Shown here: one piece after another, positions 45,407 through 47,671 of the stretch
Layout: each line of letters starts with the position of its first letter
How positions within the stretch are numbered: position 1 is the first letter of the stretch
From: Roseateles sp.
GTDB taxonomy: Bacteria; Pseudomonadota; Gammaproteobacteria; Burkholderiales; Burkholderiaceae_C
DNA length: 64,000 nucleotides
Assembly (NCBI GenBank): GCA_016790285.1
Contig: JAEUPJ010000033.1
Coordinates: 29,560 to 93,559 of the forward strand
Direction of reading: 5' to 3'
Position numbers and translations under genes: made by a program
Notes under the pieces: model-generated
Told to the model about the DNA's origin: nothing
Databases searched by the model: none
The model's input: only the letters and a program-made list of their open reading frames with translations

Positions 45407-46168
45407 ATGGTTCTTCAGAACTTCAACCTGGCCGGCAAGACGGCCATCGTGACCGGCTGCAACACGGGCCTCGGCCAGGGCATGGCCGTGGCACTCGCCC
45501 AGGCGGGCGCGGACATCGTGGGCGTGAACGTGTCCGAGCCGGACGAGACCAAGGCGGCTGTCGAGGCCCTGGGCCGGCGCTTCCTGGACCTGCGGGCCAA
45601 CCTGGGCGACGTCAGCTGCATCCCCGACCTGGTGGCCCAGGCCAAGGCGCTCAACGGCAGCGTGCACGTGCTCGTGAACAACGCCGGCATCATCCGCCGC
45701 GAAGATGCCATCAAGTTCACCGAGGCCGACTGGGACGACGTGATGGACCTGAACCTGAAGTCGGTGTTCTTCCTGTCGCAGGCCGTGGCCAAGGTCTTCA
45801 TGGCCCAGGGCAGCGGCGGCAAGATCATCAACATCGCCTCGATGCTGAGCTTCCAGGGCGGCATCCGCGTGCCCTCCTACACGGCGAGCAAGAGCGGCGT
45901 CATGGGCATCACACGCCTGATGGCCAACGAGTGGGCCTCGCACGGCATCAATGTGAACGCCATCGCCCCGGGCTACATGGCCACCAACAACACGGCACAG
46001 CTGCGCGCGGACGAGCAGCGCAACAGCGCGATCCTCGAACGCATCCCGGCGGGCCGCTGGGGCAAGCCCGAGGACCTGGCCGGGCCGGTGGTGTTCCTGG
46101 CGTCGCCGGCGTCGGACTATGTCAACGGCTACACGATCGCGGTGGACGGCGGCTGGCTGGCGCGGTAA
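45407..46168 (+). CDS. kduD: 2-dehydro-3-deoxy-D-gluconate 5-dehydrogenase
   Basis: A 253-residue short-chain dehydrogenase, the same length as E. coli KduD. The cofactor loop is TGCNTGLGQGMAVALAQAGA, the structural motif is NNAGI, and the active site is S-x12-YTASKSG. The KduD-like ending INVNAIAPGYMATNNTAQLR and GYTIAVDGGWLAR supports the assignment. It reduces 2,5-diketo-3-deoxygluconate to KDG, which KdgK then phosphorylates. The usual partner kduI is not in this window. The ribosome site is weak (GGACAA). Three KdgR-box-like sequences precede it. Confidence 0.92.
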   Translation: MVLQNFNLAGKTAIVTGCNTGLGQGMAVALAQAGADIVGVNVSEPDETKAAVEALGRRFLDLRANLGDVSCIPDLVAQAKALNGSVHVLVNNAGIIRREDAIKFTEADWDDVMDLNLKSVFFLSQAVAKVFMAQGSGGKIINIASMLSFQGGIRVPSYTASKSGVMGITRLMANEWASHGINVNAIAPGYMATNNTAQLRADEQRNSAILERIPAGRWGKPEDLAGPVVFLASPASDYVNGYTIAVDGGWLAR

Positions 46169-46205: not shown

Positions 46206-46303
46206 GCGAGCGAGCGCGGGCAGGCCTGATGCTCCATGTCCCCCGGCCCGCTGCGCGGTCCTCCTCCTTTACTTGCGCATCAGGCCTGCCCACACTCGCT
46301 CGC
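46206..46303 (-). repeat. Inverted-arm element, copy 1
   Basis: Outer arms GGGCAGGCCTGATGC (46218-46232) and GCATCAGGCCTGCCC (46277-46291) are perfectly complementary over 15 bp. They extend to 27 bp (46206-46232 with 46277-46303) with two C-A mismatches that become G-U pairs on the minus strand. The 44-nt interior holds a 36-bp core (46237-46272) that recurs inverted in copy 2 with one mismatch. The core itself contains a small GC hairpin and, on the minus strand, an AAAGGAGGAGG purine run. The arms are unrelated to those of copy 2. Confidence 0.75.
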
Positions 46304-46352
46304 TGTGCACCGCTGGCTTCGTGCACAAAGGCACTGCGGCGCACGCCAGGAT

Positions 46353-46432
46353 GTGGCTGTGCGCCATTGCGAAGGTAAAGGAGGAGGCCCGCGCAGCGGG
46401 CCGGGGGACACGAAGCAATGGCGCACAGCCGC
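46353..46432 (+). repeat. Inverted-arm element, copy 2
   Basis: Outer arms GCTGTGCGCCATTGC (46356-46370) and GCAATGGCGCACAGC (46415-46429) pair perfectly over 15 bp, extending to 18 bp with one mismatch. The interior is again exactly 44 nt, and its 36-bp core (46375-46410) is the reverse complement of the copy 1 core with one difference. The core includes GGCCCGC-GCA-GCGGGCC, a perfect 7-bp hairpin. Conserved loop plus element-specific arms is the striking feature. Confidence 0.75.
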
Positions 46433-46501
46433 AGCCCGGCGCCACGCACCCGTCGAACAAGCCTTGGCCGCCAACCCACACCTCAGCAAGTTGGACCCAC
46501 G

Positions 46502-47671
46502 ATGAAATCCACCGAACGCAAGTTCCAGTTCCTCACCCGCGAGGACCCCGACACCGGTGCCCGCGTCACGCGCCTCACACCGCCGGACGTCACCTGCCAC
46601 CGCAACTACTTCTACCAAAAGTGCTTCACCAACGACGGCACGAAGCTGATGTTCGGCGGCGAGTTCGGGCCTGAGCCCAGCCCCAACTGGAACCTGCACC
46701 TGCTGGACCTGCCCACGCAGACCGCCATCCAGCTCACCCAAGGCCCGGGGGAGAACACCTTCGGCGCCTTCATGAGCCCGGACGACCGCTTCGTGTACTT
46801 CGTGCGCGGCGAGCGCCAGCTCATCCGCCTGGAGCTGGCCACGCTCAAGGAAGAAGTCGCCTACGTGGTGCCCGATGGCTGGGTGGGTTATGGCACCTGG
46901 GTGGCCAACAGCGCGTGCACGAAGATGGTCGGCATCGAGATCGCCGCGGCCGACTGGTTCCCGCTGAACACCTGGCAGAAGTTCAACGAGATGTTCCACA
47001 AGAAGCCGCTGTGCCGGCTCTTCAGCGTGGACCTCGCCACCGGCGAGCGCCGCGTCATCCTGGAGCAGCGCGGCTGGCTCGGCCACCCGCAGTACCGGCC
47101 GTTCGAGGACAACACCGTCGCCTACTGCCACGAAGGCCCGCACGACCTCATCGATGCGCGCATGTGGTTCATCAACGAGGACGGCACGAACCGCCGCTGC
47201 GGCAAGGAACACACCGACGGCGAAAGCTGCACGCACGAGTTCTGGGTGCCCGACGGCAGCGCCATGATCTACGTGAGCTACAACACCAAGTCACCGGAGC
47301 GCTGGATCTACAGCCTCGACCCCGTCACGCTCGAGAACAAGCTGCTGACCGCCATGCCGCAGTGCTCGCACCTGATGAGCAACCACGACGGCACCCTCAT
47401 CGTCGGCGACGGCTGCGGCACCGTGAGCCACGACAGCACGGCCAGCAACGCCATGCTCGTGGGCGACCCCTACCTGCACCTCTTCGACCTGAAGGCCGGC
47501 GCCACACGCCCCATCGCCCGCCACGACAGCGGCTGGGACGTCTACAAGGACAACCGCCAGGTCACCCACCCGCACCCGAGCTTCACGCCCGACGAGAAGC
47601 AGGTGCTGTTCAGCTGCGACAAGGAACGCGCGAACGGCGTGGAACCCGCGCTCTACCTGGCCGACCTGTGA
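46502..47671 (+). CDS. ogl: Oligogalacturonate lyase (PL22)
   Basis: A 389-residue cytoplasmic seven-bladed-propeller enzyme, the length of Dickeya/Yersinia Ogl (388). It has no signal peptide. The manganese ligands known from the Yersinia PL22 structure are conserved with a constant offset: H290 in QCSHLMSNH, and Q353, H356 and H358 in NRQVTHPHPS. FTNDGTKLMFGGEF and WVGYGTWVANSACTKMVG also match. It splits short (unsaturated) galacturonides into 5-keto-4-deoxyuronate and galacturonate. The ribosome site is poor. Its stop overlaps the GTG start of the next gene (GTGA), coupling it to a methylesterase. Confidence 0.95.
   Translation: MKSTERKFQFLTREDPDTGARVTRLTPPDVTCHRNYFYQKCFTNDGTKLMFGGEFGPEPSPNWNLHLLDLPTQTAIQLTQGPGENTFGAFMSPDDRFVYFVRGERQLIRLELATLKEEVAYVVPDGWVGYGTWVANSACTKMVGIEIAAADWFPLNTWQKFNEMFHKKPLCRLFSVDLATGERRVILEQRGWLGHPQYRPFEDNTVAYCHEGPHDLIDARMWFINEDGTNRRCGKEHTDGESCTHEFWVPDGSAMIYVSYNTKSPERWIYSLDPVTLENKLLTAMPQCSHLMSNHDGTLIVGDGCGTVSHDSTASNAMLVGDPYLHLFDLKAGATRPIARHDSGWDVYKDNRQVTHPHPSFTPDEKQVLFSCDKERANGVEPALYLADL

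Follow-up and report, generated by a model that had tools for sequence, protein, structure and literature searches.

The window analysed here, a stretch of 64,000 nucleotides of Roseateles sp. DNA, carries two hairpin units, A and B, which lie head-to-head between the genes kduD and ogl. The features of the locus, in which each unit has a sense strand defined by its purine-rich loop, are the following.

45407..46168, plus strand: kduD, 2-dehydro-3-deoxy-D-gluconate 5-dehydrogenase (TIGR01832), upstream flanking gene, outside the element
46206..46303, minus strand: unit A, with type A arms (..GGCCTGATGC), a 27-bp outer stem and a 44-nt interior; the sense (purine-loop) strand is minus
46211-46298: match of unit A to covariance model R2, 92.4 bits
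46206..46232, minus strand: unit A, 3' arm (read in sense)
46233..46244, minus strand: unit A, 3' strand of the conserved internal loop, GGGGGACA-UGGA
46245..46261, minus strand: unit A, inner hairpin, GGACCGCGCAGCGGGCC
46262..46276, minus strand: unit A, 5' strand of the conserved internal loop, GCAAG-UAAAGGAGGA
46277..46303, minus strand: unit A, 5' arm (read in sense)
46304..46343, no strand: spacer between units A and B
46344..46441, plus strand: unit B, with type B arms (..GCGCCATTGC), a 27-bp outer stem and a 44-nt interior; the sense strand is plus
46349-46436: match of unit B to covariance model R2, 96.4 bits
46344..46370, plus strand: unit B, 5' arm
46371..46385, plus strand: unit B, 5' strand of the conserved internal loop, GAAGG-UAAAGGAGGA
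46386..46402, plus strand: unit B, inner hairpin, GGCCCGCGCAGCGGGCC
46403..46414, plus strand: unit B, 3' strand of the conserved internal loop, GGGGGACA-CGAA
46415..46441, plus strand: unit B, 3' arm
46502..47671, plus strand: ogl, oligogalacturonate lyase (PF14583), downstream flanking gene, outside the element

In each unit an asymmetric internal loop rich in purines, with UAAAGGAGGA as its 5' strand, GGGGGACA as its 3' strand and short variable ends, lies between the outer stem and an inner hairpin of the form GGNCCGC-GCA-GCGGNCC. An inverted-repeat search returned arms of 27 nt that are 44 nt apart and are 93% complementary in unit A and 89% complementary in unit B, as well as an inverted 50-nt core common to both units (46230-46279 and 46368-46417, 90%). 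The initial annotation had described two inverted units with complementary arms and a common core, and these results bear it out: the 36-bp cores that it delimited (46237-46272 and 46375-46410) are identical but for one base, the arm pairs of the two units are, judged visually, unrelated, and the two non-Watson-Crick positions in the 27-bp stem of unit A are G-U on the minus strand and C-A on the plus strand. The interior of 44 nt also stands, but the arms, given as 15 bp, are 27 nt long, and unit B ends at 46441 instead of 46432. Moreover, it had been overlooked that units A and B constitute one head-to-head pair, which recurs as such.

Folding of both units on both strands gave z-scores of -7.2 to -9.5, with none of 200 shuffled sequences being equally stable, and a loop pattern derived from the family matched twice in the window and not once in 100 shuffles. 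At the gathering score, Rfam gave no matches in the window, and the locus itself yielded only sub-threshold miRNA and snoRNA models, and a known RNA family was rejected on these grounds.

A fixed internal loop, variable stems and paired hairpins

In an alignment of 26 units, 96.4% of the stem cells are paired, 21 of the 29 stem pairs show two-sided changes, and the covariation is 0.592, compared with a mean of 0.145 for shuffled sequences and at most 0.103 when the partners were slid. We also collected loops by string alone, making no use of pairing. This resulted in 187 distinct loops with flanks, taken from all the loci collected (125 of them in covariance-model or other late fetches); the string pattern requires GGGGGACA, so that units with a nested module (see below) are excluded from this set. 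The flanks of 183 loops show Watson-Crick matches at 12-16 of 16 positions and those of the other four at 11, whereas when 3' flanks were swapped between units, 47 of 561 combinations reached at least 12 of 16 and 42 of 561 reached 11. When G.U pairs are included, the stems are at least 16 bp long for 183 of the 187 loops and 23-33 bp long for 158, the weakest being 3, 10, 11 and 13 bp. A search for the core in the host and its relatives had been set in advance as the test of the initial annotation, and the core does recur elsewhere, flanked by such stems; the dispersed copies and the complementary flanks of the string-collected loops rule out a chance local duplication.

The inner hairpin also varies in length and sequence, and the internal loop is therefore the conserved part of the unit; it is common to several genera. 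Thus, the first reading offered by the initial annotation, that of a conserved loop with a covarying stem, is strongly supported by the covariation and by the occurrence of the loop across genera, while the structured-RNA role attached to it is a less likely rival explanation (see below). Because the fixed part, a small internal loop, can be separated from the free part, the stems, the recognised part is directly testable.

Two variations on the loop were observed. At five loci (L021, L022 and L023 of the own genome, L183 and L251), a nested module of about 75 nt with hairpins of its own (..TGAGCCCGGACAC..CTGGCGAA..) is located directly after GGGGGA(C), at the same loop position in two genera. 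In addition, a variant loop, GGTAAAGGA..GGGACACGGAG, with a quite different inner hairpin is present in three species beside similar genes (L024, 600-700; L183, 1660-1759; L184, 1779-1878).

Canonically, members of the family consist of two unlike hairpins, A and B, arranged head-to-head; single hairpins also occur. Among 82 distinct pairs of neighbours located within 60-330 bp, which are not independent since some of the sites are common to related species, 80 are arranged (-,+), one (+,+), one (-,-) and none (+,-), and for 39 of the 80 (-,+) pairs the start-to-start distance is 140-145 bp. An independent tally in six genomes gave 38 (-,+) pairs out of 39. The A and B patterns left at least one arm untyped in 56 of the 80 (-,+) pairs; all 24 pairs for which both arms could be typed consist of one type A and one type B unit. 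The arms of partners are hardly more alike than random ones (0.486 versus 0.438), and are at least 70% alike in only three of the 80 pairs. In six genomes, 51 of 129 units have no neighbour within 400 bp; some of these may have sub-threshold partners, and others are true singles. At seven loci (L062, L063, L065, L074, L079, L080 and L082), Roseateles pairs form part of a longer repeat, about 300-450 bp in length (..GGCCAGGAGCGGTCGGC..), which was not seen around the window copy.

Distribution of the family and its sites

A pattern search detected 12 cores in the own genome, and the same pattern matched in eight of 40 genomes of relatives, the own genome counted, all of which belong to the own genus. 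With a covariance model of 26 units, matches were obtained in 11 of 20 genomes of the genus and in 17 of 399 genomes of the order, the own genome included in both cases. A broader covariance model matched at least 139 of 299 genomes of the family, in at least 78 of 141 genera, and at least four of 369 genomes of the class, two of which belong to a family outside the order; these counts again include the own genome, and come from scans in which at most 14 and at most 11 candidates per genome, respectively, were scored. Model R2 was built partly on hits of model R1, which makes its E-values circular, and the string-only counts serve as a check. Six genomes that were searched more fully contain 5 to 33 units each. 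Hydrogenophaga, Variovorax and Aquariibacter are among the named carriers, and the units of the first two have arms that are quite different yet still complementary.

Three contigs of the own draft genome (C79, C3 and C30) end inside or at units, and its copy number is therefore probably underestimated. A 3.8-kb contig titled Nostoc sp. CMAA1605 (L065) bears a typical Roseateles pair and is probably contamination. As to a plasmid or phage origin, which we rejected, the window copy gave no blastn matches among plasmids (72,556 records) or phages (50,697 records), a search that copies with other arms could escape; two stretches of viral contigs match by the loop pattern.

According to a rough context call based on codon usage, the copies are mostly intergenic, with one of 52 being called in-gene; the call covered 60 loci, eight of which had no pattern-matching unit, and it missed the copy in mpl. 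In-frame copies, a minority, were found in hrpA and mpl. Of the 38 genomes that gave an hrpA match, 28 were read at site 1 in the hrpA linker. In these 28 genes of genus g275 the linker contains the unit in ten cases, a second palindrome of the GGGGTC(A/G)G type in four and a third palindrome in three, and is short and empty in 11. Site 2, analysed in ten genomes, is empty in four, contains the unit in five and has a degenerate 75-nt insert in one (G1094). The site 2 inserts range from 75 to 138 nt, every length being a multiple of three. Their core is oriented forward in G1074, G1091 and G1069, and is inverted between similar arms, antisense within hrpA, in G1099 and G1080. Likewise, the mpl copies, present at the same place, are sense in G622 and antisense in G317. 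Palindromic elements of at least three different kinds occur in frame in the hrpA linker (L263-L286 and L318-L327) of different species, which makes this linker a hotspot.

The second reading of the initial annotation was that of a small mobile sequence whose insertion sites would be the centres of palindromes, terminators for example. Its mobile part is upheld by the dispersed copies, the presence or absence of the element between species and the in-frame gene copies. Insertion into pre-existing palindromes is not: the unoccupied sites, namely 11 of 28 at hrpA site 1, four of ten at site 2 and the kduD-ogl spacer of genome G018, which is 37 nt long, show no long palindrome by eye, and the element therefore brings its own arms. 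The flanks of occupied and unoccupied sites have diverged, so that neither a target-site duplication nor the exact insertion boundary could be established.

The element beside ogl is common to the own genome and two others (G000, G006 and G009), which have different genes on its other flank. Taken together, the two units have 50 stem pairs, of which 14 vary between the three genomes: eight are compensated by two-sided changes, five are single-sided changes giving G.U, and one, in the window copy, is A.C. If these copies descend from one insertion, this suggests that stem pairing has been kept after insertion by selection or correction; the pairing retained in three species points to constraint or correction in place, beyond the mobile phase alone. 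In other Roseateles species (L296, L297, L299 and L301), the region upstream of ogl contains a different segment that looks structured (..GGTCGGTCCCCCG.GGGGACGG.. and similar sequences).

Strand bias of the stems and explanations of the family

When the stems of 121 non-redundant units were read on each unit's own sense strand, the departures from Watson-Crick pairing amounted to 166 G.U, 12 A.C and 88 others. The G.U:A.C ratio is 49:1 for the left members of pairs, 36:2 for the right members and 81:9 for the remaining units, and a separate per-position table gave 164:11. The same bias is seen in loci retrieved by sequence only (31:3) and in those retrieved by hrpA homology (23:2), and hence it is not produced by the covariance model. 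For the REPs of E. coli K-12, a small yardstick (32 REPs in 250 kb, with nine wobble cells), the ratio is 5:4, which differs from that of all units (Fisher p = 0.0035) and from that of the sequence-only loci (p = 0.026). It seems, therefore, that selection or the mobile form "sees" the folded sense strand of each unit separately. The E. coli REPs, which are handled as ssDNA by TnpA-REP, have no G.U excess, so that this mechanism does not generally leave such a strand bias; the bias does provide a sequence-only route to asking whether hairpins are seen as ssDNA or as RNA.

We favour, with a probability of about 0.6, the reading that the feature in the window is one copy of a non-autonomous, mobile, REP/BIME-like palindromic repeat family that is read via its conserved internal loop. 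The mobility of the family is well supported, for the reasons given above. A trans-acting factor would recognise the internal loop of each hairpin when its sense strand is single-stranded and folded; if it is the loop that is recognised, the stems would need only to pair. By analogy with TnpA-REP and REP hairpins, this factor may mobilise the hairpins singly or as a pair. Set against this reading are the lack of a recognised transposase in the neighbouring ORF clusters and of units at the Y1 loci examined (see below), the six of 30 unit-rich genomes with no Y1_Tnp match, the diverged flanks, which yielded neither a target-site duplication nor an exact insertion boundary, the pairing kept in place beside ogl and the absence of a G.U excess in the E. 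coli REPs.

Alternatively, the units may be structured RNA elements acting in place, the internal loop of which would be recognised by a protein or the ribosome, for instance in the protection or processing of mRNA 3' ends; from the sequence comparisons we regard this as possible, if unlikely. Read-through from either side would place the 3'-most hairpin of a (-,+) pair in sense form, and such a role agrees with the covariation of the stems, with the tolerance of G.U that both members of a pair show in their sense strands, which has no counterpart in the E. coli REPs, with the mostly intergenic position of the copies (a rough call) and with the eight compensated and five G.U changes among the 14 altered pairs beside ogl. 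Orientation speaks against it, since the seven clear single units between tandem genes in G622 comprise three sense and four antisense to the genes, and the core is antisense inside hrpA and mpl in the three genomes mentioned; in addition, nine of 20 genomes of the genus have no match.

Spread by way of a folded RNA intermediate, which would make the hairpins a bacterial analogue of a SINE, is improbable; the RNA would then be reverse-transcribed in trans after recognition of the internal loop. If this were true, the G.U bias of the sense strand, whatever the genomic strand, would record selection on RNA.

Another reading, that template switching at replication (quasipalindrome correction) keeps a DNA palindrome perfect, with no recognition of a folded strand and a loop conserved for a reason at the DNA level such as protein binding, appears quite improbable. 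The core inversion seen between similar arms at one hrpA site is what recombination, or template switching, between inverted arms would yield, and correction would also account for the two-sided changes in the shared element beside ogl. However, correction by itself should leave A.C and G.U departures in roughly equal numbers on a given strand, and 12 versus 166 were observed.

Likewise quite improbable is mobilisation by a Y1 transposase of the TIRYT type (TnpA-REP subclass 2.1). The published TIRYT motif is GGGGWSAS (PMC3733652), which fits where the loop reads GGGGACAC, as in type B and g275 units, but not type A units (GGGGACAT) or those of Hydrogenophaga. Y1_Tnp matches are present in all 20 genomes of the genus and in 24 of 30 unit-rich genomes, leaving six of the latter without a match, and at two Y1 loci (L340 and L345) GGGGACAC is located near the gene, with the rest of the loop absent. 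Against this, no unit was found within about 1.5 kb of 60 Y1 loci (30 of 40 matches in the genus and 30 of 36 further matches; the search for units there gave one match, with E = 0.78), and most of the motifs that flank Y1 genes are of the GGGGTCAG type, which belongs to a different palindrome, the second one of the hrpA linker. Moreover, no transposase was recognised by eye in the 25 largest clusters of neighbouring ORFs from 249 loci, clusters that resemble shared sites by eye. A TIRYT or RAYT gene adjoining the element was therefore rejected, as was an autonomous version with a gene between the units: its sole candidate, a 704-aa ORF between units 2.6 kb apart in genome G295, was set aside when a nearer partner unit was found.

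Relation to known repeats

In architecture and habit the family resembles BIMEs and REPINs, and in its presence inside genes the Rickettsia palindromic elements (PMC3733652, PMC8266576, PMC6006769, PMC10969869, PMC2817692). PMC3733652 presents REP, BIME and REPIN sequences as palindromes in many copies that are mostly intergenic and arranged head-to-head, with hetero-pairs of unlike hairpins and some copies in genes, and PMC8266576 describes strand-specific recognition of the irregular REP hairpin by TnpA-REP. The present family shares the inverted palindromes with a short spacer that recur as a unit (80 of 82 pairs (-,+)). Unlike REPs, it has stems that are mostly 23-33 bp long and, except close to the loop, show little fixed sequence, an asymmetric internal loop that is fixed, one loop common to many genera and a strong G.U bias of the sense strand. 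No REP tag, GTAG or CGTC, is fixed in the 45-nt flanks of the 187 units (anywhere in the 5' and 3' flanks, GTAG occurs in 23 and 20 units, and CGTC in 20 and 56), and an association with RAYT/TnpA-REP genes is absent at the 60 Y1_Tnp loci examined. Since it failed these tag and transposase tests, we have not filed the family as REP.

Concerning the inverted repeats of TIRtrons and TIRYTs, the likeness is that some loops read GGGGACAC, and the second hrpA-linker palindrome carries GGGGTC(A/G)G; the difference is that the present units do not flank the Y1 genes examined. With bacterial MITEs the units have in common that they are small, dispersed, mostly intergenic and structured, while neither terminal inverted repeats of a known IS nor, the flanks having diverged, a target-site duplication was established here.

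Rickettsia palindromic elements are, according to PMC10969869, about 150 bp long and inserted in frame within protein genes. The hrpA and mpl copies are likewise in frame, a likeness by description only; the present units differ in being mostly intergenic (by the rough call), in forming A and B pairs and in residing in Burkholderiales, to which their in-frame copies extend the theme of palindromes inside proteins. In the literature searched, mostly that outside subscription journals, no description of the loop or the family was found. An apparently undescribed repeat family thereby has matches in nearly half of the sampled genomes (at least 139 of 299) of a large bacterial family.
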